Source: Eutreptiella sp. 'Long Island Sound 2002' (lineage: Eukaryota > Euglenozoa > Euglenophyceae > Eutreptiales > Eutreptiaceae). Taken from it: a stretch of DNA of 64,000 nt. The notes below the pieces were generated by a model. The model had not been told where the DNA came from. It searched no databases and was given only the letters and a program-made list of their open reading frames with translations. Of the stretch, positions 1,109 through 50,439 are shown one piece after another; the first letter of the stretch is position 1, and each line of letters starts with the position of its first letter. Made by a program: the position numbers and the translations under genes. The stretch is taken from the NCBI GenBank assembly GCA_964036045.1, contig OZ038378.1:43543639-43607638 (forward strand), read 5' to 3'.

Positions 1109-1111
1109 CTA

Positions 1112-1577: not shown

Positions 1578-1639
1578 TGTTTTTTGGGCCCTTGCTTCAA
1601 AACCCTCCCTCATTTCGCGCCCAGGTCCTCTTATTCTTC

Positions 1640-3298
1640 ATGGACAATGCTGTCAATGAGGCCCTGCGGGCTCTCAACACAGCCAACCTGCGGCGGTACA
1701 CCGATCTGCAGTGCCCCAAGGCCCGGCGGCGGCGTTTGAAGGCGGTTCAGCGGCTGGTGCGAGTTCTATTGGGTGACCCAGACGTCGTGTGTGGCACCAA
1801 CACCAAAGGCGAAGTTTGTTTAAGTGGTGGGGCGTGCACTGCCCTGTCTGGCCCACTTGGCGGCCATCTTGCATTAACAGCTCAGGAGCATGAGGCCCTG
1901 AGCATGCTACGCATGGCATGCAGCATGCATCTCTCCCAACGGGCCCTTTTGCGAATGCCCCGCCGTTGCACACAACGGGACCTAAGGACCGTTCGGCAAC
2001 GGATCATGCCCTACTTTCCCCAAACCACCATTGTAAAGTCTACCACAGGCCGCAATAGGGCAGCTGCCCATGTGCCTTTGCAATCAATTGTGCAAAATGC
2101 AATATCTATGGCCCGAGTTATTGGGAAACCCCCCCCTAGTGGCGTTGCCATTATTGTTATTTCAGTTGATGCGACTTCCTTGTGGAAGGCATCCTCCACC
2201 CGTGCGGATGTATGGGTTAATGTATGGGGGGGGGCAAAATATGCTTCGAAGGTGAAGCTATGGGCCTCATGGTTTTGCATGGATGGCGGGGATGAACAGG
2301 CTTTTTTGAGAAGCCTTGACATCTCCGCCAACCTCAACCAAGAGGTGAGGGATGTGGAAGAGGACGTTGTCCTCTTTCAAAACCAATTTTTGACTTGCAC
2401 TGTCATTTTGACAGGGGATGGGAAGGGGATGCAAGCAATGGGGGGGGCTGGGTCTAAGTGTTGGTTGTGCAAAGACCCCAATGGGATTGTTGAGCAAATG
2501 GGGGTGGAGTCCACCTCAAGATGGGGGTCATTCTTGAGAAGTGTGACCCCTGATAGGCGGCCGGGGGACTACCAACATGCAGCATGCCGCATCCTAAACG
2601 GCATTGCAAAGCGCATTGAGACCACCCTCCAGGCCCTCCCCCCTAGTACCCCTGGTAAGGCCCAAGCTCTTGCAGCTTTGCAGGCCTTCAAACAAGCCCT
2701 CAAGGATGAGACCGCAGGCATCCCTCTTAGGGAACGCCTCCCTTCGGCCTCGAGGGCCACAGAAAAAGATTTCGATCTAACCAGCACCAAAGTTTTCCTA
2801 ACCTCCCCCCCCTTCCAAAGGCAATTTGTGGAATGCCTCAAAGAGCATGTCCCCACAGTGAGGACCCCTGGGGGACCTATGTTATGGGTTGTTGTGCATG
2901 TCATGGTGAAATGCATTGAGGGTTTGTATGAGCTTTGGAGGGTGAGGGAGTTGTACACTCTAACCCAAGTGGAACGCCACCGTGCGTTGACCACAAAATT
3001 TTCAAAAGCGTGGGGAGACTCAGGTTGGTCCCCCACCAGGTGGATCCATTGGTGCTTGGCACATTCCACCTTTTTTGCCGAGAAATGGAGGAACATTTTT
3101 CAGTTTTCCTCCATCCCAACGGAGTATCGGCATGGGCCTTACAAGAGGAGGCTCAAAAATTGTTTTAAGGGTTGGTCTTTGGTGAGGCCAAGTATGTCCC
3201 TCCGCCACATGCACCATTGCATGTCCATGAACGCCCTGGAGCAAGGGCTTTTGGGACTGGAGGCAGCCAAGGCCTCAGACATTGATGACTTTGTATGA
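1640..3298 (+). CDS. Family A transposase (D-D-E, CxxC insert), intact copy
   Basis: 552 codons from ATG 1640; the frame is open from 1577, but only GTG lies there and a splice acceptor at 1624 precedes the ATG. Likely catalytic acids are D177 (in SVDATSLWKAS), D260 (in LTGDGKGMQAM) and E495 (in SIPTEYRHGPYKRRLK). A CWLC pair at residues 274-277 follows the second Asp. RWIHWCLAHSTFFAEKWR precedes the Glu. This D-D-C2C-E order recurs in the family B transposase (12231-13994) and resembles the large RNase H-fold transposase group with a C(2)C/H insert (hAT, MuDR, KDZ/Zisupton). I cannot place it in a named family. This copy is intact; A2 is disrupted. Confidence 0.7.
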   Translation: MDNAVNEALRALNTANLRRYTDLQCPKARRRRLKAVQRLVRVLLGDPDVVCGTNTKGEVCLSGGACTALSGPLGGHLALTAQEHEALSMLRMACSMHLSQRALLRMPRRCTQRDLRTVRQRIMPYFPQTTIVKSTTGRNRAAAHVPLQSIVQNAISMARVIGKPPPSGVAIIVISVDATSLWKASSTRADVWVNVWGGAKYASKVKLWASWFCMDGGDEQAFLRSLDISANLNQEVRDVEEDVVLFQNQFLTCTVILTGDGKGMQAMGGAGSKCWLCKDPNGIVEQMGVESTSRWGSFLRSVTPDRRPGDYQHAACRILNGIAKRIETTLQALPPSTPGKAQALAALQAFKQALKDETAGIPLRERLPSASRATEKDFDLTSTKVFLTSPPFQRQFVECLKEHVPTVRTPGGPMLWVVVHVMVKCIEGLYELWRVRELYTLTQVERHRALTTKFSKAWGDSGWSPTRWIHWCLAHSTFFAEKWRNIFQFSSIPTEYRHGPYKRRLKNCFKGWSLVRPSMSLRHMHHCMSMNALEQGLLGLEAAKASDIDDFV

Positions 3299-3367
3299 AA
3301 AACGACCACAGATGCTTTGTGCCAAGTGTTTTGTGTTGTTTGTCCTAGGGAGGGAGGGAGGAGGGGT

Positions 3368-3490
3368 GCGCGATAACTACCCGCGATAACTGCGCGATAA
3401 CTGAGTTATCGCGCGATAACTAGCGCGATAACGAGTTAGAGCAAGGTGCTCTAACTGCGTTCTAACTCTGTTCTAACTGTGCTCTAACTC
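3368..3490 (+). repeat. A1 palindrome array downstream of the transposase
   Basis: CGCGATAAC half-sites, now in the opposite orientation to 1436-1577, followed by repeated TCTAACT/GTTAGAGC motifs including TTAGAGCAAGGTGCTCTAA. The two arrays flank the transposase as inverted repeats. The same sequence lies at 23634-23756. Confidence 0.8.
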
Positions 3491-3639
3491 TTTGACCCCC
3501 CCCCCAAAAACCACCCCCATGATGCGGGTTATGTGGGGAAAGAAAGGGGATGGGGGGTTTTTGAGGGTGCTGAATCCATTTTTTTAGGTGGTTTGCCCCA
3601 AAATTGAGGGTAGGTGGGTGTTCCAGAAATTGCGTTCTA
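3491..3639. other. Non-coding spacer between A1 and A2
   Basis: C-run and A-run rich stretch with no supported gene. It is closely matched by 23757-23906, so it belongs to the repeated unit. The unit boundary of family A must lie here or in the flanking array, but I see no sharp terminal repeat. Confidence 0.6.
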
Positions 3640-3970
3640 ACTAGGGGTTCCGCACCACGCCCTAGAACGCTGCATCCCACACCTCCTGGAGCACGATTTT
3701 TTGAGTGACATTCAGCTGCAAAGTCTTTTGGAAGATTTGGATAGGGTGCCTCTCTCAGAGAAGGCACCCATTTTCAATGAGAACCCCCCCATTGTCGGCA
3801 GGCCCAAAGATTCTGGGACCCGCCGCACATTGTATGGCAACTATGGGGGTGCCGACCACCACAAGCACAACCCCCACAAGCTCCATGATCTGCCAGTCCT
3901 CAAAAGGGTGGCAGATCGTGTGCTTGAGACCGCGAAGAAGACTGTGGTGGGGGGGGTCGGATGGATGTAC
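3640..3970 (+). pseudogene. A2 dioxygenase, N-terminal part, split by B1
   Basis: An open frame without a clear ATG reads LERCIPHLLEHDFLSDIQLQ and continues to KRVADRVLETAKKTVVGG, where a G run meets the B1 left end. The remainder of the same gene resumes at 16054. Removing B1 with one GTAC copy leaves the two halves out of frame by one base. The G8 run just before the junction could account for this, as a single-base length change there would align the frames. Its start is unknown; the first 30 bases also occur at 23915-23947, showing that a third unit began there. Confidence 0.5.
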
Positions 3971-4199
3971 CCTTCGTGAACCGGCCGTTTGAATCCGAGA
4001 TTCACGGTACCGTGAATTTCACCTATTTTTGTTGTGTTTTGCTCGTAACTTGGTGCTATCGTGTGCTTTTGTCGTGCTATCTTCGCCCAAAGTAAGATCC
4101 AACAAATGTGTGCAATTTACAGTTTTGAAGTAGCCGCATGGTTCAACACATTTGGTGAGATCGCCGTGAATGTGAAATTCACGCACCCAAATTCACGCA

Positions 4200-4320
4200 T
4201 AAATTCACGCTAGATTCACAGATTCACAAGAATGTGAAATTCGCACGAATTTCGTACGAATTCGTACGAATTTCGTACGAATTTCGTGCGAATTTCGTGC
4301 GAATTCGTACGAATCGGCCC
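4200..4320 (+). repeat. B1 left subterminal TTCGTACGAA array
   Basis: Tandem overlapping copies of the palindrome TTCGTACGAA and variants (TTCGTGCGAA, TTCGCACGAA), preceded by TTCACG repeats. The equivalent at the B2 left end is 7815-7882. Confidence 0.85.
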
Positions 4321-4329
4321 CAATTTTGT

Positions 4330-5100
4330 CTTGTCACTGCTATTTGTTGCACACATTGGATATTGAACAATTTGTTTTGTAGATCCCTAGATACACGCTA
4401 GCACGCACAATTTCGTTCTAGCCTAAAACGACATCGCGAGGGCGTTCTAGCCTACAACATCTAGCTAGAACGTAGACTAGAACAGGAATCATTCTAGCCT
4501 AGATTTGTTCTACACTAGAACACACATAACAAATCAAACCATTATACACATTACATTTCTTATGCTTTGTTGCGTTGCTCACAAATTTGTTGGGAAGGGC
4601 ATAGGTTATAGGTGATAGTGGATGCAGTGGTGGGGGGTCCATTCTGGTCAAACCATTGTTGCATTGCTCACACAGTTGTTGGGAAGGGCAAAGGTGATAG
4701 TTGCTAGTAGATGCATGAGGGTGGGGTGGGGGGGTCCATTGGGTCAAACCATAGGAGCATAATCAACCACGTCTAGGGTTGAGAGGGGGGGGGGGGGGCA
4801 AGGAGACCCCCACTTACACCTGAGTGTCTGGGTGTGGGGTTAGGAGGGTGTCTTGCTTGTTGCAGTGCGGTTAAGGTTAGGGAGGGTACTCCTTTTCTCT
4901 TCACAGGTTTTTTCTACGTGCGACCATGCACAAAATGCAGCAATGTGCAAGCAACCATGAAGACAAATTACAAACATGACACAGACAGCAACAAGCACAC
5001 AGAGCAATCAACAGCACAGACCAATCACCATATTATTTCTACGTGCGATTGGGTGCATCCAGACTGAGGTATGTTGCGTGTAGTTGTTTCGTGCTGCCAC
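4330..5100. other. B1 interior, no gene seen
   Basis: Contains iterated CTAGAAC/GTTCTAGCCT motifs at about 4417-4525 and a two-copy direct repeat of about 89 bp (starts near 4567 and 4656, sharing GTTGGGAAGGGCA). No coding signal. Confidence 0.6.
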
Positions 5101-5103
5101 ATA

Positions 5104-5106
<3 letters not shown>

Positions 5107-5168
<62 letters not shown>
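5107..5168 (+). repeat. (GT)n microsatellite
   Basis: Nearly pure GT dinucleotides. A second, shorter GT tract lies at 5299-5337. Confidence 0.95.
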
Positions 5169-5689
5169 CTCCTCGGGAACTGTGGTGCATGAAATAAGGG
5201 GTGGCCCCCCAGTGATCGACCAAGGGGGGGCGCCAGCCCCCCCGGGAGCTTCTTTGGATATTGCGGTACATGAAAGAAGGGGTGGCCCCCTCCTCCTGTG
5301 TGTGTGTGTGTGTGTCTGTGCGGTGTGTGTGTGTGTGTACATTGCTGCACTTTATGTGTGTGTGGGTGCCGGGGGGGCAGGTATAGGGAAATGTGTGTGG
5401 GTGCATGCATCGGGCAAAAAGGAAAACACAATGGGTGGGGCATGTGTGGGGCATGCCTAGTGCAGTGCAATACACACATGGCCGACAAGATGGAGTAAAT
5501 CCCCCAAGTGATCAGGGGGTCCCCCATGTGCGCAGGGGGTTTTTCAATGGGGACGACCCACGAATGAGTGGGGGGGCGTTGTCCCCAGGGGCCACATCTG
5601 TAAATCCCCCAAGTGTTCAGGGGGTCCCCCATGTGCAAAGGGGGTACTTTTGATTTCATACAACGGGGATGACCCACGCAAGAGTGGAT

Positions 5690-6022
5690 GTGTGTACAAC
5701 ATGTGTGTACATTGCTGCACTGTATGTGTGTGTGGGTGCCGGGGGGGCAGGTATAGGGAAATGTGTGTGGGTGTGGGGACTCCGGTACATGCATAGGTGG
5801 TGTTGGTGTGGCTCTTCTGCCAGTGTCCTGCAAAAATGGTGCGAGATTCGTACGAAGTTCGCACGAAATTCGTACGAAATTCGTGCGAATTTCGTACGAA
5901 TTTCGTGCGAATTTCGTACGAATTTCGTACGAATTTCGTCCCTCAATACGTACCGTGAATGTGGTTGTTACGAATTTCGTACGAAATTCGTACGAAATTC
6001 GTACGAAATTCGTACGAATTCA
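5690..6022 (+). repeat. Inverted-repeat arm 1 with TTCGTACGAA array
   Basis: Reads ...GGGGCAGGTATAGGGAAATG..., then GTGTGGCTCTTCTGCCAGTG, then a TTCGTACGAA array (5841-6022). The same order occurs in reverse complement at 7085-7345, forming a stem of about 0.3 kb around the 281-bp tandem repeats. Confidence 0.75.
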
Positions 6023-6169
6023 AACAATTTGCATGAATTTGTGTCATTTTTGTGTGTGTGTGGGTGTGCCTGGTCGGAGGGGTTGTTGTTTGTGTGGGCA
6101 TGGGTGCATGGTGTGTGCGTGCCTGGGTGATATGTGCATGCATTGGTGGTTCTTGGGTTCTTGGGTGGT

Positions 6170-7060
6170 TTTGTTGAATCATGTGGGACAATACTTTTGT
6201 GTTGTTTGTAGTTTGTGACTGTCTATCGTTTGTGTTTGTTGCTGCTGAATGTCATTATGTGTGTTTAATGCCTGCTTTTCGACTGCGTTGGTATCGCTGT
6301 TTTGCTTGCTGCTTGTTGTGCTTCGTCTGTCTGCTGCTCCTCACTGGTGACTGTTGCTGATGACCTGACTGTGTTGTTCTTCTGTGTTGTTGTTGTGTTG
6401 CTGTGCTGTGTGCTATGAGTGGGTGTGGATGGTTGGATGGGTGGCTGCCTGTTGTTGAATCCTGTGGGACAATACTTTTGTGCTGTTTGTAGTTTGTGAC
6501 TGTCTGTCATTTGTGTTTGTTGCTGCTGATTGTCATGATGTGTGTGTAATGCCTGCTTTTCGGCTGTGTTGGTATCGCTGTTTTGCTTGCTGCTTGTTGT
6601 GCTTCGTCTGTCTGCTGCTCCTCACTGGTGACTGTTGCTGATGACCTGACTGTGTTGTTCTTCTGTGTTGTTGTTGTGTTGCTGTGCTGTGTGCTATGAG
6701 TGGGTGTGGATGGTTGGATGGGTGGCTGCCTGTTGTTGAATCCTGTGGGACAATACTTTTGTGCTGTTTGTAGTTTGTGACTGTCTGTCATTTGTGTTTG
6801 TTGCTGCTGATTGTCATGATGTGTGTGTAATGCCTGCTTTTCGGCTGTGTTGGTACCGTTGTTTTGCTTGCTGCTTGTTGTGCTTCGTCTGTCTGCTGCT
6901 CCTCATTGGTGACTGTTGCTGATGACCTGACTGTGTTGTTCTTCTGTGTTGCTGTTGTGTTGCTGTGCTGTGTGATATGGGGTGACTGTGTTGTTCTTCT
7001 GTGTTGTTGTTGTGTTGCTGTGCTGTGTGCTATGGGCTGAGTGTGTTTGTTCTGCATAAA
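6170..7060 (+). repeat. 281-bp tandem repeat, about three copies
   Basis: GTGACTGTCT(A/G)TC recurs at about 6216, 6496 and 6777, a period of 281 bp. Units are GT/TGC-rich with near-identical sequence; the last is partly degenerate and contains a shorter internal duplication. The frames seen on the - strand are repeat artefacts. Confidence 0.85.
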
Positions 7061-7084
7061 AATGATACAAATTCATGCAAATTG

Positions 7085-7345
7085 GTCGAAATTCGTACGA
7101 AATTCGTGCGAAATTCGTGCGAATTTCGTACGAAATTCTTAACAACCAAATTCACGGTACACTTTGGGGACGAATTTCGTACGAAATTCGCACGAATTTC
7201 GTACGAATTTCGTGCGAATTTCGTGCGAATTTCGTACCATTTTTGCAGGACACTGGCAGAAGAGCCACACCAACACCACCTATGCAATAACGAAGTCCCC
7301 ACACCCACACCCATTTCCCTGTACCTGCCCCCCCCCCCGGCACAC
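7085..7345 (-). repeat. Inverted-repeat arm 2
   Basis: Reverse complement of the order at 5690-6022: TTCGTACGAA array (7085-7245), then GCAGGACACTGGCAGAAGAG, then the CCCATTTCCCTGTACCTG stretch. Confidence 0.75.
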
Positions 7346-7556
7346 ACGCACACACACAAACACACACACACACAGACACACACACACACCCATGCACAAA
7401 CACACACATACCCTCAATGAAAGCAAACAGCCCCCCATGCACTCGACCCACACCCACACACTGCCCGCTCACACACCCTCATACGTACCTGGACAGTGGA
7501 TGTGCCACGGTTAGATGTTTAGGGGGGGGGGGGGTTCTGTGTGTGTGTGTGTGTAC
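7346..7556. repeat. CA/GT-rich B1 satellite piece
   Basis: CACACA tracts and a segment ending in GTACCTGGACAGTGGATGTG that recurs at about 14870. It is part of the B1 interior split by the B2 insertion. No gene. Confidence 0.6.
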
Positions 7557-7814
7557 CCTTCGTGAACCGGCCGTTTGAATCGGAGATTCACGGTACCGTG
7601 AATTTCACCCAATTTTGCTGTGTTTTGCTCGTAACTTGGTGCTATCGTGTGCTTTTGTCGTGCTACCTTCGCCCAAAGTAAGATGCAACAAATAGGTGCA
7701 ATTTAGAGGTTTAAAGTCCCCGCATGGTTTAACAGATTTGGTGAGATTCACGTGAATGTGAGATTCACGCACCTAAATTCACGCAAAAATTCACGCTAGA
7801 TTCACAGATTCACA

Positions 7815-7882
7815 GTATGTGAAATTCGTACGAAATTCGTACGAAATTCGTACGAATTTCGTACGAATTTCGTACGAATTTA
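7815..7882 (+). repeat. TTCGTACGAA array before the B2 dioxygenase
   Basis: Six or so overlapping AATTCGTACGAA units, ending 50 bp before the ATG of the dioxygenase. Possible promoter-proximal binding sites. Confidence 0.85.
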
Positions 7883-7931
7883 CCCTCATTTCCACTGTTT
7901 CGCTTTCCCACAGCTCTCAAACTCTTTGACA

Positions 7932-9851
7932 ATGTCGCAGCAGACTATGTCTCAGCTCGCCAGCCTGGCCTCGCGCCCCGACCCCGCAGCCGACACCCTC
8001 GCCCACTACCAAGCCCTCCCCGTTGCCCACCATCAATTGGAGGAGGCAACGTACGAGTCGGAGGCACTGGGGGTGGATGCCATCGTGGGCTGGGCAGCCT
8101 CCCTCGACCCCTCCCCCGATGTCATCCACATCGACATGCGCAGCCCCACCCGCAACAGCTACCTCGGGGGGAGGGGATGGGCCACAACCCTGTGGAGGGA
8201 ACTGCGCCACCAACTCCCCACCCTCAAATTTCTCCATCTGACCCCTCTCCCCTCCAGTGTTGACCAGCTCCTCAACTCGATGAGGAATAACCCTGTGGGG
8301 AAGCCTAAGGACGCCCACGTCCAGGTGTACCCCACCGCTAACCTCGTACACACCCCCCCCCACTGCGATATGGTGTGCCTGCAGGATCTTGCTGCAGGTG
8401 CACCAGCAGGCCACTGTTTTTTCCCCTTTTCTTGGCATCTTGCCAACCCCCGGTGGTGGGATGATTTGGGCATCGCCCCTTTCCATCCCACCATCCCCCC
8501 CCAGGTGCACGTCCCCGACGTCACCCACCCCACCTTCTACAGCACAACTTCTTTGCAATGGTACCGTGGTGCCTCATGCGCCCCCCCCTTCATTTCGAGT
8601 GAACCCCCCCTCCGCACTGAACCCCTTCCCGACCCCCCTCATGGGGTGACGGGCAGCCCTGACCCCGCCCCCGACAGGGTTGGCCCCTCTCAGCCGCCCC
8701 TCAACTTTGTTGATGGGAACGGCTACATTGTGCTTCGGGGGCTTGTGGAGGAACGGGATTGTGAGATGGGGTGGAACAAGGTGATGAAGGCGTGGGGCAG
8801 CGGCGACGAAAAAGTCGTCGCAAAAAATTTTGAGCTCCTTTTCAACGCCGCGCGGAGTGAGGAGCAGGCCAAGGATCCCGAGCTCCCCCGCCGGTGGCAA
8901 AGCAAGAGCGCCTTGGGGTCGGGGTTGGGGGGGCCTCTCTTCAAGAAGTTCCACCCCCACCTCACCGAAAGTGTCCCTGGGGTTGAGGACCTCCACCCAA
9001 TGACGCCGGGCAGCGTCATTGTGGCCAGTGTGGGGAGTGGGCCGCAGCTCCCCCACACCGACGTGACCACCCACCCCGAAGTCCTCCCCCCCAGCGACAA
9101 GGCGGTGGGGGACTGCCACCTGAGTAGCTTCCTCTGCTTGTCAGAGGACTACCAGGTGGCGGTGCAGGCGGGGACGGCCCTGGGGGAGGCGGCGGAGGCG
9201 CGCTGGGACACCGTTCAGCTGCATCGGGGGGACATGCTGCTGATGGTGGCCACCAGCCGCCATCATGGATTGCCTGCCCACCCTGACTCCAAGGATGGGC
9301 TGCAGGGGGCTCTTTTTAACTTGTGGACCCCCGACCCCCGACACAAACACCACCAGGCCAACACCACACACTTGGACGCCATCCCCCCCAAGGAGGCCCT
9401 GGACGTTGCTGGGGATTTGTCCAGCTGGGACCTCCCCAGCGTGGACCAGGTGTTGTGGGTGGGGAAGGGGGCGGTTGCGAGGGTGGGGTTGTGGGAGGGG
9501 GAGGCTGCCCAGGCCCTGTTCGCCGACCCCCCGCAGACGCTCCCGGCAGGCCCCCCCACCTGCCCCTTCCACCCCACCTTCATCTCCCGGTCGGCCCCGG
9601 CCGCCGACCTCGCCGTCATCGAGGTCGGCCCCCAGTGCATGCTGTTTTTCCTGGGCAGCGTGCACCAGCTGGAGGTCGTGAAGGGGGGCGATGTCGACGC
9701 GGAGTCGGAGATCCACTTCGCCTTGTCCGGCATTGCCCCCCCGGGTCGGCCGACCACGCTGTGGCACCTGGTGAACACGGTCCCAGCGTGGCGGTCGCCC
9801 AAGTGCGCGAGGACCGGGGCATGGAGCATCACCTGCCCATGCGACTGCAAG
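7932..9851 (+). CDS. B2 exon 1: 2OG-Fe(II) dioxygenase-like protein
   Basis: 640 codons from ATG 7932 (an upstream TTG is not needed). The likely iron ligands are H375 and D377 in GPQLPHTDV and H444/H445 in MVATSRHHGLPAH, with a double-stranded beta-helix pattern between (LSSFLCLSEDYQVAVQAGT, then HRGDMLLM). This is the HxD...H signature of the 2-oxoglutarate/Fe(II) oxygenase superfamily. About 350 residues of unrecognised sequence precede it. The exon ends at a donor (gactgcaag/gtgtgc) after CPCDCK; A2 has CPCHQ at the same point. Splicing to 10137 keeps phase 0. TET/JBP-like 5-methylcytosine oxidation would suit a transposon with CpG arrays, but substrate and subfamily are inference. Possible alternative: a protein or small-molecule hydroxylase. 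Confidence 0.65.
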
Positions 9852-10136
9852 GTGTGCCTGCTTGTGTGTTTGCTTTGTGTATTTGCAACAATTGGACGAA
9901 ATTCACGTGAAATTCGTACGAAATTCGTACGAAATTCGTACGAATTTCGTACGAATTTCACGTGAATAAATTTCTGTGAACTTTCTCGAGATGTGAAATT
10001 CGTACGAAATTCGTACGAATTTCGTACGAATTTCTGTGAATTTCGTCCAATTTGCTCCTATTGTTCTTGCATTGCCCCGTCTCCACTCCCCCTTTCTCAA
10101 TTTTTGCCTTGCACACCTCCCCACATCTGCATGCAG
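9852..10136 (+). repeat. B2 intron carrying a TTCGTACGAA array
   Basis: Begins GTGTGCCTGC and ends CATCTGCATGCAG; removal joins two open frames in phase 0. From 9897 to about 10048 it is mostly TTCACGTGAA and TTCGTACGAA palindromes, the same array that bounds the element. The family A intron 17097-17338 also carries its own family array, so the placement is conserved. Confidence 0.7.
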
Positions 10137-11579
10137 GTCCCGTTCACCGCTTGGTCGCCGGATATTCGGCACCACACCAGGCGCCAGTACAAGCCCCGGC
10201 CCCGATTGCCTGAGGAGCACGCCGAGCCCGCCGAAGGCCCCGGTGGCGCCCAGCCCGCAGGCACCGGCGGTGGACGGGCACCAAGCGAGGCCGGCAGCGT
10301 GCGCAGTGTGGGGTCGCAGCGCTCTCGGCGTTCGGGAGGCAGCGAGGCCAGCACCGCCAGGGGGCATATGGCGCGCGAGGTGGTGGTGCCCCAGCCGTCC
10401 CGCGACGAGCTGGGCGAGGCCCACACCGACCCCCCCCTGGACCGGGTCACCCTGGCCGCCAGGCAGCCGGATCCGGCCTGGACCCAGCAGGTGCCGCCCG
10501 GGCCGGATGGGCGGCAGCGGCACCTCAGTGCCGTGTGGGACATGGAGTTGGAGTCGCGGGGGGTGCAGGGCACCCTCCGCATCTCCTTCCCCTGCCCCAT
10601 TGTGCTCCGGGGGGGGTCCAACCTGCCTGCGGGGCAGGAGCTGGTTGGCATGTTTGCCTACCGGCTTGTGAGTGGGCACTGGCGGGTGCAGACGGGGGTG
10701 TCGGGGATCGGGGAGGGGGGGATGGTGACGACGGCAGGGATTTGTGGGCTGAATGTGCTCACGGGTTGGGAGCAGCGGAGGCCGGAGTGGGTGGACGTGG
10801 CATGGGTTGCCATGCGCGTCCATGTGGGGAGGCAGCGGAAGATGGGGGTGGTGGCTGACGTCATTGACGTCGAGGAGGACGAACCCCCCCCCACGCGCAA
10901 GCGGAAAGGGCGCCCCGAAGGGGACACGGGCCCCACCCCCCCCCCCAAAGCCCCGCGTACGGCCACCCCGGGGGAGCGGGCAGGGCGGGCGGAGCAGGCG
11001 GAGCCGTCGGGGGGGCGGGGGCAGAGGGGGGTGGTCCAGGAGTGGGTGGACCAGCAGCGGGCGGGGGCGTGGGAGGCACGCGCCATCAGCGCGGAGGCCG
11101 CCAACCGCGACCTCGAGGCCCGTCTGCGGGACTGCGAGTCGCGGTTGGCGGACGTCACCAGGGAGCGTGACCGGCTGGCCACCAAGGTGAAGACCCTGGA
11201 GCGTGACGTGACGACGTTGCGCAAGGCAAAGCCAGCGGCACAGCCAGCAGAGGCAGTGGAGAGGGCTGAGGGTGCCGAGGCCCCCGCCCCCCCGGGTGAC
11301 AGGGGGGGGGCCAGTGCTGCCGGTGTCCGGTACCTCCCGGCCGGCGCACAGGCCTGGCATGCCCAGGCCGAGGCATGCGCCGGCCAGGTGTCCGCAGTGT
11401 CCACCGGCCTGCGGATGGCCATGATGGCCAGTGGCCAGCAGGTCAATGTGGACAGCGTGGCCCCGGACGCCCCCAAGGTGACTGCCGCAATGGAGGATGT
11501 GCGCCGGCAGTACCCCCCCCACCGCCTCACGTCGGCGGCCATGGACCCCTCCTCTGCTCCCGGGGGGGGGGGTGTGTAG
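10137..11579 (+). CDS. B2 exon 2: coiled-coil protein module
   Basis: 480 codons to the TAG at 11577-11579, in phase with exon 1, giving a fusion of about 1120 residues. Order: low-complexity Ser/Arg/Gly segment; a domain of about 120 residues (GTLRISFPCPIVLRGG to WVAMRVHVG) that parallels the N-terminal domain of the A1 exon; a basic patch TRKRKGRPEG that could be a nuclear localisation signal; a coiled coil of about 80 residues (EARAISAEAANRDLEARLRD onward); and a Pro/Gly tail ending in a G run. Function unknown; architecture matches the family A module, so it is probably a required partner of the dioxygenase or transposase. Confidence 0.6.
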   Translation, partial: VPFTAWSPDIRHHTRRQYKPRPRLPEEHAEPAEGPGGAQPAGTGGGRAPSEAGSVRSVGSQRSRRSGGSEASTARGHMAREVVVPQPSRDELGEAHTDPPLDRVTLAARQPDPAWTQQVPPGPDGRQRHLSAVWDMELESRGVQGTLRISFPCPIVLRGGSNLPAGQELVGMFAYRLVSGHWRVQTGVSGIGEGGMVTTAGICGLNVLTGWEQRRPEWVDVAWVAMRVHVGRQRKMGVVADVIDVEEDEPPPTRKRKGRPEGDTGPTPPPKAPRTATPGERAGRAEQAEPSGGRGQRGVVQEWVDQQRAGAWEARAISAEAANRDLEARLRDCESRLADVTRERDRLATKVKTLERDVTTLRKAKPAAQPAEAVERAEGAEAPAPPGDRGGASAAGVRYLPAGAQAWHAQAEACAGQVSAVSTGLRMAMMASGQQVNVDSVAPDAPKVTAAMEDVRRQYPPHRLTSAAMDPSSAPGGGGV

Positions 11580-12230
11580 GTACCCTCCGGAGCACCTGTC
11601 CTTTCTAACCACGCCTTTCTAACCACGACGAATGTTATCCTGCCCCCCCCCCCCCCCAAGCATGGGCAGTTTGACCGATATGTGGGGTACTCCCCCCCCA
11701 CTGTGCGAAATTTTCTGCAGCACTGTTTGTACATTACCCCCTGACCTGATGTGCCCCCTGACCTGTTAACCTGTTAACCTGTTAATTTGCGATTCCTTTC
11801 TGCGGAACTGTTTGTATATTACACTGCTGGCTGAGTGACAGCCGGAATGACAGGATGAGACAATGACAATGACAATGACAGCATGAGCACCATCCTGAGC
11901 TTGCTTTGTGAGGGTCAACGAGGGCACAAGGATGAGGCTTTGGCAGAAATTCTGTGACAGTCATGTGAAATTCGCACGAAATTCGTACGAAATTCGTACG
12001 AATTTCGTACGAATTTCACATTTTCAGAATATTCACACATTTCTATTCATGTGAAATTCGTACGAAATTCGTACGAAATTCGTACGAATTTCGTACGAAT
12101 TTCGTGCGAATCTATGTGAATTTCTTTTAATTGCATGCGAATCACAGTAGAGAGAGTGGTCTGCGGCAGGGGGATGGTAGAAACTTTGCGATGACTGCCT
12201 GCCCATTCAACAGGTCCTGTATCTCACATC
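11580..12230. other. B2 spacer with TTCGTACGAA arrays, possible intron
   Basis: Includes a C16 run, a short CTGTTAAC triplication (about 11760-11785), a GACAAT repeat, and two TTCGTACGAA blocks between 11964 and 12123. It ends at an acceptor-like site (attcaacag/gtcctg) 18 bp before the transposase ATG. The family A transposase has the same arrangement (cccag/gtcctc...ATG). No gene of its own. Confidence 0.6.
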
Positions 12231-13994
12231 ATGCCACGGCCCAAGGAGCCATTCCATCTGGTAGCGGATCGTACACGACGGCGGCGCGTACAAGAGCTCC
12301 AGGAGGTTGTTTCCAAGGAGCTTGCAGCACCCTACACCGTCAAGTACCTGCCCGACTCGGGGCAAATAGTGCTCACCCCCGAAACAAGAATTGTAGCCAC
12401 CGTCCAGCCCGAGCCCACCCAGGAGGAGAGGTTGATTATGGCCGTGTGGAGGATCCGGTCATTGCACCTCTCTAGGACAGAGTCCCGGTACCTGGTGGGG
12501 AGCATGACGTACGGTGTGGTATGGGACCAGGTGTACGGCATGCTCCGGCAGCTAGCGTTGCCGGAGTCCCGGGCGTTTACTGCCTATACGGGTGACGACA
12601 CGGCCATCAATGGTGCGGCCTGCTACCTACCTGACCGCATCGCCCACCTATTCAAGTGTCGACCACCACCACCCTCGGCCATCATGCAGCCCGGGGACCG
12701 ACGGCTGCATTGGTTGCCTATTGCGGTGGACGGTACATCGAGGCATGAGGCCTCGTACGTCCATTGCACGCTTGGTGGCACCGCCAGCCCCAACCAACTA
12801 TCTAGTTGGTGGCTACTAGGGGGCAGTGAAAAGTGGGACACCCTCTACGCGGCCTCCCAGGAAATTGATTTTGATGATGAGTTGCGCAAGGCCGCAACCG
12901 TAAGTTTTAAGGATACGGCAGGGACCGATAGGCAGTCCCTTTTTTTTCTGTGTGCAGATGGTAAGGCACAGGTGCTCATGGCGGGCTGCCAAAACTGGAA
13001 GGCAGAATCCCCTGGTGCCACTGTGTGTTGGGTCTGCATGCGTAACCGTGCTCTGTGCCTTGCTACCTTTGGCACAGCAAGTGCGATAGACGGCAACTGG
13101 GAACCAGCCGTTGCCATAAGTGCTATATATAGGACCATTATGAGTGATAGGCGAGTGCCTGATTATGGCCTCCATGGGGTCCTTCGTGTCCTGTTGTGTG
13201 CAGTCAACGGGACACGGGACCTAGTTGTACAATTGACAGGGAAGGCACCGGCCACTGTGGCACGCACCATGCTGCAACCGGTTTTAGATGAGGCACGGCT
13301 TGCTGCACGAACTTGCACCCGTGCCTCATTAAATAATGACAAGGCAAACAGCAAGGGGAAGGTGAGGATGGAGTGTGCTGCTGCCATCCATTTCATGCGC
13401 AATAAGGGTTGGGAGAAGATAATAGATGCTTGCCTAGAGCAGCCTAGTGTCAGGCAGCATCAAGTAGGGGGAAAAAGTTGGGAGTCGGTGTGCAAAACGT
13501 GGTGGGAGAATTTTGCAAGCATGTGTGTATACGCGTGGCGTTCCGCATGGTTCTCCGGGGCCGACTTGGGGCGGCTCCGGAACCATAGCATAGCCATGGG
13601 CGCTGCCCACAATGAGCTCCAGTGGGGCAAACTTCTTTGGACGCATCTTTGGATCGACCACATGTATTATTTTGCAAAGAAGTGGAGAATCTTGTCAAAG
13701 TTCTCCTGCTTTGCCATGGAGGGAAGTCACCGGAGGCTGAAGCGCATGTTGCGCAACAGCGGGGGCCTAAGCCTCCTCCGGGGGAGACTAGGGGTGCAAG
13801 TGGTTGTGGACAACCACACCATTGACGATAGCCTTTGGTTGCATGGGTGGGATGCGACCAAAAGGGCTCAACATGGGCAAGGGCCCATAAGTGTACAAAC
13901 GTATGCAAGCCGCACAAGAAGACGGCTTCTAACCGACATGCAGCACCTTCAGACTCTACAGCGGCGGTTCCGGTGCCGCAAGAGACGGACATGA
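12231..13994 (+). CDS. B2 transposase (D-D-E, CxxC insert)
   Basis: 587 codons from ATG 12231. Candidate catalytic residues: D167 (IAVDGTSRHEAS), D243 (FLCADGKAQVLMAG), E497 (FSCFAMEGSHRRLKRML), with CWVC at 266-269 between the second D and the E. The stretch LLWTHLWIDHMYYFAKKWR before the Glu aligns with the A1 protein, and the D-D and D-E spacings are close (76 and 254 here, 83 and 235 in A1). Overall identity to A1 is low, so these are distant members of one family. The C-terminus is basic and rich in Arg. Probably cuts at the B termini and may bind TTCGTACGAA sites; both are inference. Confidence 0.7.
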   Translation: MPRPKEPFHLVADRTRRRRVQELQEVVSKELAAPYTVKYLPDSGQIVLTPETRIVATVQPEPTQEERLIMAVWRIRSLHLSRTESRYLVGSMTYGVVWDQVYGMLRQLALPESRAFTAYTGDDTAINGAACYLPDRIAHLFKCRPPPPSAIMQPGDRRLHWLPIAVDGTSRHEASYVHCTLGGTASPNQLSSWWLLGGSEKWDTLYAASQEIDFDDELRKAATVSFKDTAGTDRQSLFFLCADGKAQVLMAGCQNWKAESPGATVCWVCMRNRALCLATFGTASAIDGNWEPAVAISAIYRTIMSDRRVPDYGLHGVLRVLLCAVNGTRDLVVQLTGKAPATVARTMLQPVLDEARLAARTCTRASLNNDKANSKGKVRMECAAAIHFMRNKGWEKIIDACLEQPSVRQHQVGGKSWESVCKTWWENFASMCVYAWRSAWFSGADLGRLRNHSIAMGAAHNELQWGKLLWTHLWIDHMYYFAKKWRILSKFSCFAMEGSHRRLKRMLRNSGGLSLLRGRLGVQVVVDNHTIDDSLWLHGWDATKRAQHGQGPISVQTYASRTRRRLLTDMQHLQTLQRRFRCRKRRT

Positions 13995-14451
13995 GATGAC
14001 CTTACGAACCCAGACCATTGTTGCCTGTGACCGGGGTGCATGCTGGGGGGCTTACTAGGGGTGTGAGGACAAATCTGGGGGTGCACACGGGTAACATTTG
14101 TGTAAATTCACGTGAATTCACGTGAATTCACGTGAAATTCGTACGAAATTCGTACGAAATTCGTACGAATTTCACGTGAATTCACGTGAATTCACGGCTG
14201 TGAATCGGCTACAGGCTTGCCGGGTTCCGGCACCTCTCGTTTTGGGCACGGTGCAGTCATGATGCATGCTTTTGGGGCGGGACTTTCATTGGATGATGCG
14301 TAACAAAGCTAGGGGAGGAATTTTGGCCCCTCAAAGCCCTTGAAATGAACCAAGAATATGGCATTTTCCCCCAAAAACCTCAAATTTTGGGTAAATTCAC
14401 GTGAAATTCACGCAATTATTCAAACGGCCACTTAACGGCCGTTCACGAAGG
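13995..14451 (+). other. B2 right-end region with palindrome array
   Basis: TTCACGTGAA and TTCGTACGAA array at about 14101-14200, then about 180 bp of unique sequence shared with 15800-15985 of B1, then the right terminal repeat. No gene. Confidence 0.8.
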
Positions 14452-14455
14452 GTAC

Positions 14456-15695
14456 ATGTATGTGTGTCTGCCTGTGTGTGTGGATGGGTTTCTGCGGATG
14501 TGTGTGTGTGTGTGGGTGGGTGGGTCGTTGTGTCCATGCGTAGTTGGGTGTCCGGTTGTGTGTGTTTGTGTGTATGCGCGTGTTGGTGTGAGGTGCAGGA
14601 AGGGTGTGTCTGTATGTGTGTGTGTGTGTGTCTGTGTGTGTGTGTATGGCTTGTGCGTATATCTGGTTTGGTGCTCCTCACATCCTCACCTGCCCCACAC
14701 ACACATGCGCACGCCCACACCCATAACCAAAAAGACAGTCATACACCCCCCCCCCCCACACAGAGACACACACACACCCATGCACAAACACACACATACC
14801 CTCAATGAAAGCAAACAGCCCCCCACTCGACCCATACCCACACACTGCCCGCCCACACACCCTCATACGTACCTGGACAGTGGATGTGTCACGGTGAAAT
14901 GTTTAGGGGGGTGATTCTGTGTGTGTGTGTATGCGTATGGTTTGTGCGGATGCGTGTATGTGGGTCGGTGTGTCCATGTGTAGTTGGGTGTGTGGTTGTG
15001 TGTGTTTGTGTGTGCGCGCGTGTTGGTGTGAGTTGCGGGAAGGGTGTGCGTGTGTGTGTGTAAGGCTTGTGCGTATATGTGCATGGTTTGGTGCTCCTCA
15101 CATCCTCACAGACAGTCGTACATGTAGCCCCCCCCCCCACACACACACCCACATGCCATTAGTGGAATCAACCCGCCCTGCCACCCCACCCACACCCACA
15201 CACTGCCCAGCCCCACATACGCACACACACCTGCATAGTGGATGTGTCGTGGTTAGGTGTGTGGGGCGGGATCATTGTGGGTGTGTCTATGTGTGTGTGT
15301 GTGTGTGTGTGTTGATTGGTTTGTGCGCGTGGGTGTGTGTTTGTGTGTGGGTGTGCATCCATGGGTCCGTGGTTGTGTGTGTGGGTGTGTGGGTGTTGGT
15401 CTGAGGTTTGGGACGGGTTTGTGTGCGTATGTGGTCGGGTGGCCCCCACATCCTCACACACACCAACACACAGACGCACGCCCGCACGTAGAAACAAACA
15501 GGAAGTCACGCATCCACCCACATGCAAACCCAACCATACAACCATACACAAACCCACACAAACCCACACACCCCACACAAAGGCACACCCACACACATGT
15601 GCACATGTTGCCTGTAGCCAGGGTGCCTGCAGGGGTGTTTGGGGGGGAGGTACCCCGGGTGTTAGGACAAACGAGGGGGTGCACAAGGGTGAAAT
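14456..15695 (+). repeat. B1 right interior: GT/CA satellite of about 0.4 kb units
   Basis: Three degenerate units (starts near 14456, 14914 and 15276) each run from a GT-rich half, through GGTGCTCCTCACATCCTCAC or a variant, to a CA-rich half, then (V)-like TACCTGGACAGTGGATGTG. Open frames here reflect dinucleotide bias, not genes. Confidence 0.7.
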
Positions 15696-16049
15696 TGGTA
15701 TGAATTCACGTGAATTCACGTGAAATTCGTACGAAATTCGTACGAAATTCGTGCGAATTCGTGCGAATTTCGTACGAATTCACGTGAATTCACGGCCGTG
15801 AATCAGCTACAGGCTTGCCGGGTTTCGGCACCTCTCGTTTTGGGCACGGTTCGGACATGATGGATGCTTTTGGGGCGGGACCTTCATTGGATGATGCGTA
15901 ACGAAGCTAGGGGAGGAATTTTGGCCCCTCAAATCCCTCGGAATGAACCAATAATATGGCATTTTCCCCCAAAAACCTCAAAATTTGGGTAAATTCACGT
16001 GAAATTCACGCAATTATTCAAACGGCCACTTAACGGCCGTTCACGAAGG
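15696..16049 (+). repeat. B1 right terminus
   Basis: TTCACGTGAA/TTCGTACGAA array (about 15700-15798), shared unique block, then the terminal inverted repeat ending CGTTCACGAAGG. It corresponds position by position to 14100-14451 of B2. Confidence 0.85.
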
Positions 16050-16053
16050 GTAC

Positions 16054-17096
16054 AGAGCTGCACCATCCTTGACATGGCCGAAATTTCGAGCTATGACCAC
16101 ACCCCCCAGCACCTCCATCGCGACGCCCCTCCCTACACCATTCCTGAAGGCACATTGATTGTCAATTGCCTTATTATGCTAACCCATAATCATGAGGAGG
16201 AGGATGGGTCACATTTTCTTTTTGTGCCCTCCAGCAGTTCGGGGTTCCCTGACCCTTGGGTGGAGAGGGCTGTGCCATTCAAGAGGGGCACTGTCTTTTT
16301 TTTTAATGCCCTTGATGTACACCGGGGGTCGGGGATTCCCAAGGCCTCCCCCACGGGGGTGTCCCACCCCCGCCTCATGGCATTTTTTGCCATTGAGCTT
16401 ACCCAGGGGGGGAATCTTCGATTCCCCAACCTGCACGTGACGCAGTCCATTAAAAGGCCCCAGCTGGGGGCACCTGGTGGCCGGGTGGCCAAGACAGTCC
16501 AGTGTGATGGGGCGGTTAGGTGTAGGGGGAAGGTGGTAGCCAATTGCTACGGATGCAATCGGCTGATTTTGTGCACCGCCCACAAAGATGGCCTTTGTGT
16601 GCCATGCCAGGAGGGGGAGGAGGTGGAGGGGGGGGAGGAGGAGGAGGTGGTGGTGGACCCCAATGGGCTCCGCATTGAGCAATCTGCTCAGTGCTTGCTC
16701 CCGGTGGGAACAACCACCGGGCATTTTTTGTTGTTGGGGTGGGGGATTGGGAAGGAGGTGATTGCCCCCCTCACTAATGAGGAGGCGGGGGCAATCGCAG
16801 GCCACCCCGATAAGTGCCCCTTGGCCAAGGTGTGCCATTGGGAGGCACTGCCCTGGCCCTCCCTGCAAGGGCATGTTGGGATTAAGGTGCCGGCGGGCAC
16901 CATTTTGGTGGTGAGGAGGGGGTTGTATGGGGGAGTGGCAAGGGTGGCCCCTGAGGTGGAGGGGGTGGCCCAGGTGGTGGAGTGGCGGCAGGTGGGGGAG
17001 TATGCGGCCGTCACGGACTTCGTGTGGCTGCGGAGGCTGGGCCTGGTGCTGGACGACGCCAAGAAGGAGGGCCAAGGTATGTGTCCATGTCACCAG
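16054..17096 (+). pseudogene. A2 dioxygenase main exon (split from its N-terminus)
   Basis: Downstream half of the gene interrupted at 3970. It reads TILDMAEISSYDHTPQHLHR, then D of the HxD pair (His codon 16116, Asp codon 16122), a core strand region, a second His at 16320 in NALDVHRGSG, and PRLMAFFAIEL with the Arg typical of 2-oxoglutarate binding. This completes an HxD...H...R oxygenase signature more clearly than in B2. A cysteine-rich segment (CYGCNRLILCTAHKDGLCVP) may bind zinc, followed by an acidic stretch and a second domain that parallels residues 500-620 of B2. Exon end: CPCHQ then gtgtga donor, phase 0. Without its N-terminus the copy is probably dead. Confidence 0.65.
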
Positions 17097-17338
17097 GTGT
17101 GAAAACTTCCCACAACACCCTGCTCTAACCCCTGCTTCAACTAGTTATCGCGCTAGGTTATCACGTTCTAACTGGGTGCTCTAACTAGTTATCGCGCTAG
17201 GTTATCGCGTTCTAACTAGTTATCGCGGGGTTATCACGGGGGGTTATCGCGGGGGTTATCGCGCGATAACCTAGTTATCGCGGGGGTTATCGCGCGGGTT
17301 AACGCATGTTTTTTTTTTGTTTCTTTTGTTTTTTTCAG
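17097..17338 (+). repeat. A2 intron carrying the GTTATCGCG array
   Basis: Starts gtgtgaaaac and ends in a long pyrimidine run plus CAG. Between 17124 and 17307 it is an array of CTCTAACTAGTTATCGCG and GTTATCGCG, nearly identical to the array before the transposase. An alternative donor at 17077 (gtatgt) would give the wrong phase. Confidence 0.7.
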
Positions 17339-18540
17339 GCTACCATCTTGCAGCTGCCCCGTATCTTCGTCAAGGACGACGCCCAGGCGGCCGAGGCAGC
17401 AGAAGGAGCAGCAGAAGCAGCAGGGGCACGGCCCGCCAAGCCGGTGGCGGCCCGGGTGGAGCTGGAGCGGGAGAAGAGGCTGCCGGAGGGGGCGTCGTGG
17501 CGGTGGGGGGAGCCTGGGGATGAGGCCTGCAGGATGGGGGGGACGGGATGGTACCGGCAGGTCACCATCACCGAGAAGGAGGGGGGGGTTGAGAGGAAGA
17601 CCAACCTCACCCTCCCCTGCTATGTGTGGGTTGGGGGGGAAACGGCCAAGTGGCCGAATGCTGCAGAGGGGGAAACGGTTGCGGCTTTTTTGTGTTTGTT
17701 TGGGATGAGCGACTCCCCCCCAAAGGAAATCTTATTTCCTTTTGAGGGTGTGTTTTTTTTTGGGGGGGGGTATACGGGGAGGGAAGTGTGGCAGAAGCTG
17801 CACAGGGGGGGGGGGCATCCACCAGGTTGGTGGGTATGACCCCCCCCCTTCTGTGGTGGACGCCACTGCCGATTGGGTTCGGCAGTATGCACCGAAGGGG
17901 GGAAGGCCAGGAAAGCAGACAAAGCGGGGACCTGAGGTGGTGGTGGTTGAGCCGGATGCCCCCCCCCCCCTTAGGGGTAAGGGCCAAACCCCCGCCCCCA
18001 AGCCCTCCCCCAAGCCATCGAAGGTGGCAAAGGTGGCGGCGGCCCATCCCCCCCATGAGGCCCCGGACGTGGAGGCCTTGGGGGTCAGTGTGGCCACCCA
18101 CGTGACGGACGCTTGCCAGGTTTTGGTGGAGCAGGCGGCCGCCACGGGGGTCGAGGCCGCACTGGCCAAGGGTCGGTCGGCCGACCACAAGTCGGCCTTG
18201 GCGAAGGTTGAAAAGGTCCAGGGCAACACCCAGCGTGCCCTGGACCAGGCCCTCAACCTGGCCACCAAGAGGGGGGAGGAGGTGGAGGCGATGAGGGAGG
18301 CCCTGAGGGAGGCCCAGGAGGGGAGGCGGAAGGCGGAGGTGGAGGCGACCCAGCTGAGGGTGGAGGTGGAGGGGCAGCGGAGGAGGGGGGATGATTCAGA
18401 CCTCCAGCAGCGCTTGGGGGTGGCTGAGGCGTAGGTGCGCAGCCTCACCTCCACCCTCAGTGCCTCCTTCACCGCCCAGCAGGGGCTGGCGCCGCAAGGG
18501 TTGCAGAGTCAGGGTAGGGGGAGTAGGAGTGGGAGCCAAT
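17339..18540 (+). pseudogene. A2 coiled-coil exon, frameshifted
   Basis: Opens ATILQLPRIFVKDDAQAAEA, providing the start missing from A1. It then follows A1 until about 17720, where C- and G-run length differences (17717-17724, 17753-17770, 17804-17815) shift frame; the correct frame resumes by about 17820. A second lesion replaces the CAG of A1 with TAG at 18432-18434, removing the last 36 or so codons. The coiled coil otherwise stays readable. Either decay or homopolymer sequencing error explains the shifts; the TAG is a real base difference. Confidence 0.65.
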
Positions 18541-18545
18541 GATTC

Positions 18546-19082
18546 GTGGGTTTGCTAAGGGGGTTGCCCAAGGGCATTTTTCGTGGGGAGGAGCGATATG
18601 GGGCCCAAGTGGACATGTGCCACTTCGGCTTCGTGGGAAGTGGAAACCCCAACCCCTCTAATTTTAGGGCGACCCACATGGCCGCTGCTACCCTCAGGCC
18701 TGCCCTCACCCCCTTGGTTGCAGACCTCAATGGGTATTGCACCTCCAATGCTCCACCATGGTTCACATGGTGTAGCATCCAAGTTGTTCGCCCCCAAGGG
18801 ACGGACACCATGGGCCTCCACTCCCATTTGCGAGATGGGGCGCCCATGGCGCTTATTGTGTGTGTGGGGTCTTTCACGGGGGTTGAGTTTTGGGTGGAGA
18901 GTGGTGGCCTGCTGAATCCCTCCATGAGGGAAAAAAAGCGGCACACCCGTGTGTGCAAGGGTAGCGCCATGGAGGGTTGGGCATGCACCGCCACCCTGGG
19001 TGGGACCCCCAAGCCCCGCCGTTGTTCAACACCAGGGCACTACACGCTCCATTGCCATGGGAGGGCGAGCGATGGAGGGTGA
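18546..19082 (+). CDS. A2 oxygenase-like module of unknown status
   Basis: About 178 codons without a clear ATG, just after the coiled-coil stop. Encodes RGLPKGIFRGEERYGAQVD, GLHSHLRDGAPMALIVCVGS, FTGVEFWVESGG and a C-terminal HYTLHCHGRASDGG. The glycine-rich FTGVEFWVE strand and the flanking His residues suggest a second double-stranded beta-helix fold, as in TET/JBP oxygenases, but the ligand triad is not convincing. It is the intact version of 1112-1440. It might be joined to neighbouring exons by splicing; I cannot fix the junctions. Family B has no equivalent. Confidence 0.4.
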   Translation: MGLLRGLPKGIFRGEERYGAQVDMCHFGFVGSGNPNPSNFRATHMAAATLRPALTPLVADLNGYCTSNAPPWFTWCSIQVVRPQGTDTMGLHSHLRDGAPMALIVCVGSFTGVEFWVESGGLLNPSMREKKRHTRVCKGSAMEGWACTATLGGTPKPRRCSTPGHYTLHCHGRASDGG

Positions 19083-19432
19083 TTTTTTATAGTGCGGGGG
19101 GGGTTCTGCACTGCACGCCTCTGTGGCGGCAGCAGCTGGTGTCCATGGGTTTTGGGGTGCCCAATGCTTGCTCTAACCCCTCCAGCTAGTGTAATTTGTG
19201 ATTCGATTGTTGTTCATTGTTTCTATTTTTTGTGCTTTGGTGGGATGCTCACCATGGTGTACTCTTTCAGCTGAGGAGGGGCAACTAGCCCGAAACCCGT
19301 CCATTTGACTGATTTGAAATTGTGATTGTGCCCCGTGCCTGCACATTGTTGACATCTCCAAGGTTTCCTGGGTGCAAAATCAAGGTTTGTGAAGGTTCTA
19401 GGCTGCCCAACGCTTGCTCTAACCCCTCCAGT
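19083..19432. other. A2 spacer, no gene seen
   Basis: Mixed-composition sequence absent from A1 (part of the roughly 570 bp A1 deletion). No motif recognised. Confidence 0.5.
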
Positions 19433-19612
19433 TAGTGCGCACTAACCCCTGCTCTAACTAGTTATCGCGGGGGTTATCGCGCGATAACTTGGTGCTCTAA
19501 CTAGTTATCGCGGGGGGTTATCGCGCTCTAACTAGTTATCGCGGGGGGTTATCGCAGGGGTTATCGCGCGATAACCTAGTTATCGCGGGCGTTACCGCGT
19601 GGGTTATCGCGC
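19433..19612 (+). repeat. A2 palindrome array upstream of the transposase
   Basis: GTTATCGCG / CTCTAACTAG array like 1436-1577, longer by two units, ending before the acceptor-like cgtgcccag/gtcctc. Confidence 0.85.
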
Positions 19613-19675
19613 GTGTTTTTTGGGCCCTTGCTTCAAGACCCTCCCTCATTCCGTGCCCAGGTCCTCTTATTCTTC

Positions 19676-20044
19676 ATGGATAGTGCTGTCAATGAGGCCC
19701 TGCGGGCTCTCAACACAGCTAACCTCCGGCGGTACACCGATCTGCAGTGCCCCAAGGCCCGGCGGCGGCGTTTGAAGGCGGTTCAGCGGCTGGTGCGAGT
19801 TCTATTGGGTGACCCAAACGTTGTGTGTGGCACCAACACCAAAGGCGAAGTTTGTTTAATCAGTGGGGCGTGCACTGCCCTGTTTGGCCCACTTGGCGGC
19901 CATCTTGAATTAACAGCTCAGGAGCATGAGGCCCTGAGCATGCTACGCATGGCATGCCGCATGCATCTCTCCCAACGGGCCCTTTTGCGAATGCCCCGCC
20001 GTTGCACACAACGGGACCTAAGGACCGTTCGGCAACGGATCATC
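19676..20044 (+). pseudogene. A2 transposase, 5' fragment
   Basis: From ATG 19676 the frame matches the first 123 residues of the A1 transposase up to LRTVRQRI, where the 20045-22272 insertion begins. Lacks all catalytic residues. Continues at 22273. Confidence 0.85.
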
Positions 20045-23567: not shown

Positions 23568-23633
23568 ACGACCACACATGCTTTGTGCCAAGTGTTTTGT
23601 GTTGTTTGTCCTAGGGAGGGAGGGAGGAGGGGT

Positions 23634-47638: not shown

Positions 47639-47896
<258 letters not shown>

Positions 47897-49101: not shown

Positions 49102-49179
<78 letters not shown>
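49102..49179. repeat. (TA)n tract 4
   Basis: Pure TA at the centre of the inverted pair E1a/E1b. Confidence 0.95.

Positions 49180-49181
<2 letters not shown>

Positions 49182-50434: not shown

Positions 50435-50439
<5 letters not shown>

Follow-up and report, generated by a model that had tools for sequence, protein, structure and literature searches.

Fungal DNA transposons that carry a TET gene include lineages of the CACTA/Transib/RAG1 (CMCT) clade, namely EnSpm, ESTA and Plavaka (Kojima 2025, PMC12730594). The available part of that account gives D-D-C(2)C-H(4)H-E as the transposase signature of the clade, describes an end motif that holds in 'most cases', with TGT..ACA for PlavakaA, and assigns to the Kyakuja–Dileera–Zisupton (KDZ) transposons target-site duplications (TSDs) of 7 bp (Kyakuja) or 8 bp (Dileera and Zisupton). 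According to the available text of a second source, VANC proteins bind tandem repeats in the non-coding parts of VANDAL elements, and TnpA activates Spm with demethylation (PMC10398659). Here we describe element C, a DNA transposon of 6,905 bp in a stretch of 64,000 nucleotides from the euglenophyte Eutreptiella sp. 'Long Island Sound 2002' (GenBank assembly GCA_964036045.1, contig OZ038378.1, forward-strand positions 43,543,639 to 43,607,638; hereafter the window, numbered from its first letter). Element C carries a RAG1/Transib-like transposase beside a spliced gene for a putative oxygenase-like domain and a coiled coil, and arrays of a short palindrome lie in its non-coding gaps. Our best explanation, to which we assign a probability of about 0.45, is that C is a CMCT transposon whose accessory protein keeps the array regions active. 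The element, its borders, its layout and the recurrence of that layout have good support; the same cannot be said of the enzyme and its role. No description of element C was found in the literature searched, of which coverage was partial.

Element C, its borders and its transposase

Element C spans positions 7552..14456 on the forward strand between termini TGTACCC and GGGTACA, which belong to perfect 16-bp inverted repeats (TGTACCCTTCGTGAAC; left 7552..7567, forward; right 14441..14456, reverse). These borders are fixed independently because, in a self-comparison of the window, similarity between C and element B, the related element into which C is inserted, starts at 3966 and 7552 and stops at 14456 and 16054. 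A preliminary description of this DNA had recognized inverted repeats at both ends, whose borders are corrected here to 7552-14456, and had reported flanking GTAC. That tetranucleotide falls within the inverted repeat, and it is ruled out as a target duplication by the start of B/C similarity at TGT and by the dinucleotides that match in all copies with both ends. The true TSD is 2 bp, TG at 7550-7551 and 14457-14458. Among 21 C copies examined (the copy in the window and 20 fetched), 9 lacked one or both exact ends in the fetched stretch, and in each of the remaining 12, where both exact ends are visible, the two flanking dinucleotides are identical (TG, TA, CA, TC, AA, TT, TG, AA, AT, TA, GG and GA).

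The transposase gene (12231..13994, forward strand) encodes 587 residues with the order D167-D243-C266xxC269-H472x4H477-E497, bearing out the open D-D-CxxC-E transposase reported earlier and adding H472x4H477 to its motif. The second histidine lies 20 residues from the glutamate, a distance that we take to be that of RAG1. In this order of motifs the protein agrees with the CMCT clade and resembles RAG1, Transib and BbRAGL; in a fold comparison made with a low-confidence model, RAG1-type and Transib entries occupy ranks 1-26. By contrast with those relatives, to which its identity is 6-11%, element C has a 2-bp TSD of varied sequence, whereas the TSD of RAG1 and Transib is 5 bp. Because the transposase motifs and the fold comparison point there, we tentatively place the protein in the CMCT (CACTA/Transib/RAG1-like) clade as part of the best explanation.

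No Pfam family matched transposase sequences P0001 or P0050 at E ≤ 10, and viral contigs searched with P0050 and P0047 gave no match. Similarity to Plavaka was not detected by Pfam. In the available part of the fungal account, PlavakaA shares the 2-bp TSDs and TGT..ACA ends of element C, but the Plavaka elements with TET are PlavakaB, not PlavakaA (PMC12730594). The KDZ link raised in the preliminary description is not supported: KDZ transposons, which carry oxygenase genes in fungi, have TSDs of 7-8 bp against 2 bp in element C, there is no Pfam match, and the motifs and fold comparison favour CMCT/RAG1. Identity with hAT or MuDR transposases was set aside for lack of a Pfam match.

Copies of element C were sought in a 2.28-Gb genome assembly of 2205 contigs, the pieces of which reach at least 200 Mb. 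A first look with the transposase DNA yielded 1958 candidates; the best 40 were scored, and all were ≥99% identical. Exon 1 of the first gene gave 1560 candidates, 40 of them scored, with 40 full-length matches at 99-100% identity and two partial matches at 83-84%. At least 19 of the 40 best exon-1 places lie about 4.2-6.5 kb upstream of, and on the same strand as, one of the 40 best transposase places, and the closest protein clusters hold 203 members for the transposase and 193 for exon 1. Within the best explanation, element C could well be a recently active cut-and-paste DNA transposon.

The first gene and its counterparts in two further families

Exon 1 (7932..9851, forward strand, 640 residues) encodes an N-terminal region of unknown kind followed by a putative 2-oxoglutarate (2OG)-Fe(II) oxygenase-like domain (H375xD377 ... 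H445G). It is followed by an intron (9852..10136, forward strand) that begins GTGTGC, ends TGCAG and holds a palindrome array, and by exon 2 (10137..11579, forward strand, 480 residues, open over 10137-11576), which encodes a conserved domain, an acidic/PPP/basic stretch and a coiled coil. The phase-0 joining of exon 1 to a coiled-coil exon across GT..AG, proposed earlier, is upheld: both exons are open, and the GTGTGC donor and the acceptor are identical in all 16 C copies that keep both, among the 21 examined. At the motif level only, exon 1 carries the iron site H375, D377 and H445 (HxD...H). QLPHTDV is followed after about 70 residues by RGDMLLMV..RHHG, an order that we assume to be that expected of a 2OG-Fe(II) double-stranded beta-helix, and an upstream GYIVLRGL is presumably the stretch found in PhyH-like proteins. 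Judged from these residues, exon 1 probably encodes a diverged 2-oxoglutarate/Fe(II)-oxygenase-like domain.

The preliminary description had linked this gene to TET/JBP dioxygenases, a link that is not supported: neither exon 1 nor its relatives match the Tet_JBP profile of Pfam. In the 2.28-Gb genome that profile finds one place among nine candidates scored, on contig C2034 and outside the elements read here (L033, G000:C2034:19243-19665, E 6.6e-18). Element C is like the TET-carrying fungal transposons, as the available part of their description presents them (PMC12730594), in combining a CMCT-motif DDE transposase with an oxygenase-type gene, putative in C. It differs from them in that its exon 1 has no detectable TET/JBP similarity and is spliced to a coiled-coil exon, and in that arrays fill its non-coding gaps. 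Chance-level matches were set aside: a PHROG minor head protein (E 0.5), an Erwinia phage protein (E 7), Toc34 (E 0.83) and OEP34 (E 0.75) in the Protein Data Bank (PDB) and, for the exon of family A described below, Tse2 ADPRT (E 0.13).

The C copies were chosen for an intact transposase, so that counts of integrity favour that gene, which is open in one piece and stop-free in 18 of 21. Exon 1 is open over its full or nearly full length in 10 of the 21 (in one of these from residue 5), and exon 2 is in one full piece in 6. The ratio of non-synonymous to synonymous polymorphism (pN/pS) is 0.42 for the transposase among 21 copies and 0.56 for exon 1 among 12 copies, of which two are not open over their whole length. 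Gene-less copies between the same ends, which the preliminary description had named as evidence against its proposal, were seen in part: element B has no genes and several C copies are internally deleted, but exon 1 is open in 10 of 21.

The evidence supports a transposon that carries this spliced gene beside its transposase, and the arrangement is found again in two other families. In family D, defined by a P0025-type transposase 59% identical to that of C, 93 of 6477 candidates were scored and three copies were read (L030, L031 and L032), in each of which the transposase frame, 609-615 residues long, is open. The gene order is that of C (exon 1, exon 2, transposase). Exon 1 is 46-48% identical to that of C over the main pieces (32-61% piece by piece), and exon 2 matches in L030 and L032, not in L031, at 29% identity (E 2e-14). 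The ends read TGTACCC, with TGCACCC at the left of one copy, and the flanking dinucleotides match in all three (TA, TA and TG). HxD is kept in three of three copies and RHHG in one. Seven of the 93 scored D transposase matches cluster within about 0.8 Mb (G000:C3:170960985-171743634).

Family A has an analogous layout of oxygenase-like exon, intron and coiled-coil exon, with a transposase 22% identical to that of C and motif residues C274/C277, H470/H475 and E495. The oxygenase-like exon carries HRD..HRG, and in four of seven proteins scanned it gave weak matches to PhyH (best E 0.012) and 2OG-FeII_Oxy_3 (best E 0.022), all in the range E 0.012-0.1 and below Pfam cut-offs. Exon 2 of A and C match by BLAST at E 0.026 over 16 residues, in a DV[IV]xVExDxPPPxR stretch, and comparison of two regions (162 and 180 residues) that were selected by eye gave 0 of 1000 shuffles in the global and 2 of 1000 in the local test.

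Palindrome arrays and a possible role for the accessory protein

All four non-coding gaps of element C hold arrays of the palindrome TTCGTACGAA, with five sites in the left subterminal region (7821..7881), seven in the intron (9852..10136), seven in the spacer before the transposase (11967..12111) and three in the right subterminal region (14105..14196); exon 1, exon 2 and the transposase contain none. The 42 occurrences in the window all fall within B and C, and spacing in the C arrays is mostly 10-11 bp, one helical turn. Family D has a palindrome of its own, TTCGCGCGAA, which is likewise absent from coding parts; L030 and L032 carry it in the same four gaps, and L031, where the intron region is missing, carries it in three. 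The family A motif, TTATCGCG/CGCGATAA, occurs 38 times, with 9 sites in the intron, 9 and 10 in the spacers and 6 and 4 at the right ends; none lies in A coding parts or elsewhere in the window, and the A left end is outside it. VANDAL elements likewise carry family-specific tandem motif arrays in non-coding parts that differ between related families. They are, however, MuDR-type (PMC12730594), and the available text does not describe VANC as an oxygenase (PMC10398659); array binding is putative in C.

The observed/expected ratio of CpG is 1.4-1.7 for the left end and intron of C and for the intron and spacer of A2 (the family A copy that surrounds B). It is 0.87 for the spacer and 1.05 for the right end of C, and coding parts have 0.38-0.73. 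Among copies, CpG transitions are more frequent than other C>T changes in six of the seven segments compared; the excess is slight in exon 2 and clear in the transposase (0.0025 versus 0.0005) and the right end (0.0143 versus 0.0012). This excess fits CpG methylation by the host and does not prove it.

In the explanation that we favour, the first gene would encode an accessory protein, exon 2 contributing its coiled coil and a small conserved domain. The protein, perhaps together with the transposase, would assemble on the helically phased, CpG-containing palindrome arrays, and could there keep the non-coding gaps active by altering modified bases or chromatin. It may act in trans, for example on B and other related copies in which arrays are present and genes absent. 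Binding of the arrays by the first-gene protein, keeping copies active, seems to us most likely, and escape from silencing is plausible; oxygenase activity, nuclear location, array binding and anti-silencing are all putative. A more specific form of the proposal is possible but doubtful, that C represents an undescribed RAG1/CACTA-type lineage with its own sequence-targeted eraser, in which an oxygenase–coiled-coil protein would be recruited to family-specific CpG arrays, including those in its own intron, with array and protein co-diversifying.

A number of results weigh against keeping arrays active through an oxygenase-like protein. Searches of exon 1 against Pfam, PHROGs, NCBIfam and PDB sequences gave no usable match, and its AlphaFold model failed (predicted local distance difference test score 29.8) and was not used; the HxD...H pattern of the preliminary description is present, and these two results leave its oxygenase identity unconfirmed. 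At the 2OG-binding position after the second histidine there is no clear arginine or lysine, C having DGLQG and A having PRLM. Exon 1 of C and the oxygenase-like exon of A show nothing in common by BLAST or by hhalign profile comparison, and a hand-picked motif alignment of the two, biased by that choice, gave 58 of 2000 global and 185 of 2000 local shuffles. In family D the second histidine site is gone from two of three copies (deleted in L031, disrupted in L032), and each of the three has an exon 1 interrupted by frame changes or stops while its transposase is open. Exon 2 is near neutral, with pN/pS 0.91 among 13 C copies, and several C copies keep an intact transposase without exon 1 or exon 2. 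The intron has no CpG transition at 634 CpG sites where about 3 are expected (Poisson chance 0.047), and between B and C transitions fall at CpG in 1 of 11 cases at the left ends and 14 of 22 at the right ends, so that the CpG excess is not uniform.

The alternative that survives best, tentative in our view, is that the first gene encodes a TnpA-like accessory transposition protein that bridges the ends through the arrays, its oxygenase-like domain being non-catalytic or no oxygenase at all. Such a protein would suit the presence of arrays close to either end and in element B, which has no genes. It would also suit an exon 1 that belongs to no recognizable family and lacks an evident basic residue for 2OG binding. 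In Spm and other CMC elements, subterminal repeats are bound by a second protein; the Spm/En repeats lie near the ends, and TnpA is not known to have an oxygenase-like domain. TnpA activation of Spm also speaks for this alternative, and Spm/En resembles C, as far as the available text goes, in having a second gene beside a CMC transposase and a link to demethylation (PMC10398659). However, the arrays of C lie in the intron and spacer too, where end pairing has no need of them, and HxD is kept in three of three D copies, with RHHG in the one copy neither deleted nor disrupted there.

It is unlikely that an oxygenase encoded by this gene acts on protein (a histone, a chromatin factor or the transposase) and not on DNA. 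The weak family A matches, to PhyH and 2OG-FeII_Oxy_3 and not to Tet_JBP, would agree with a protein substrate, as would the single Tet_JBP place outside the elements read here, but the CpG-containing palindrome arrays point to DNA as the recognized partner. Least probable is a captured host gene carried as passive cargo of no use to the element, which the damaged exon 1 of the D copies and the many internally deleted copies would allow, but against which stand the shared gene order of C and D at about 46-48% exon 1 identity, the analogous gene of A and the pN/pS of 0.56 in C. If the explanation that we favour is true, element C would join transposon-borne oxygenases and array-based, sequence-specific anti-silencing in one element, outside detectable TET/JBP and on a RAG1-lineage transposase. 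With three families in a single genome, each with its own palindrome, one could then test directly whether array and protein co-evolve.

Nested elements and other features of the window

The elements of the window are nested: C lies within B and B within family A copy A2, and copy A1 appears to be inserted in A2 as well. Element B (3966..16054) measures 5182 bp excluding C, has the same ends and the same palindromes as C, and outside C matches neither C nor A proteins. Its insertion site is the oxygenase-like gene of a distantly related element, of family A. Its TSD is GA, a 2-bp duplication that agrees with the GGVGW-SCT[IV]LD read at the insertion point in other A gene copies (four of four sequences printed). 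A tandem repeat with a 281-bp unit in 2.9 copies lies within B at 6171-6979.

Copy A1 (1..3683, forward strand), the left part of which is outside the window, comprises a coiled-coil exon (1-1107), an array (1457-1568), a transposase (1640-3298) and a right array (3369-3424); this right end appears within the 5' part of the A2 oxygenase-like gene. Copy A2 resumes after the B insertion at 16055..23946 on the forward strand, its 5' part being at 3684-3965. Its oxygenase-like exon runs up to 17075 and is followed by an intron carrying an array (17145-17287), a coiled-coil exon (17342-18541) with frame changes and one stop in this copy, a spacer array (19462-19604) and a transposase split by a 2.2-kb insertion (20048-22274). 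Between its coiled-coil exon and transposase, family A has an extra frame of 179 residues (18543-19082), reading LHSHLRDG..GSFTGVEFWV, that by eye resembles the HxD region of TET-like oxygenases except that H replaces D; it matched no family, and its best PDB match was at E 1.8.

Further along, the region 29148-42977 holds two long reverse-strand frames of 2234 and 2374 residues that look by eye like a non-LTR (long terminal repeat) retrotransposon, and a diverged inverted piece lies at 23949-25357. A long inverted repeat at 47827-50435 is 91% identical, with related copies at 52074-53513, and a frame of 346 residues at 57934-58974 resembles by eye a PiggyBac-type transposase.

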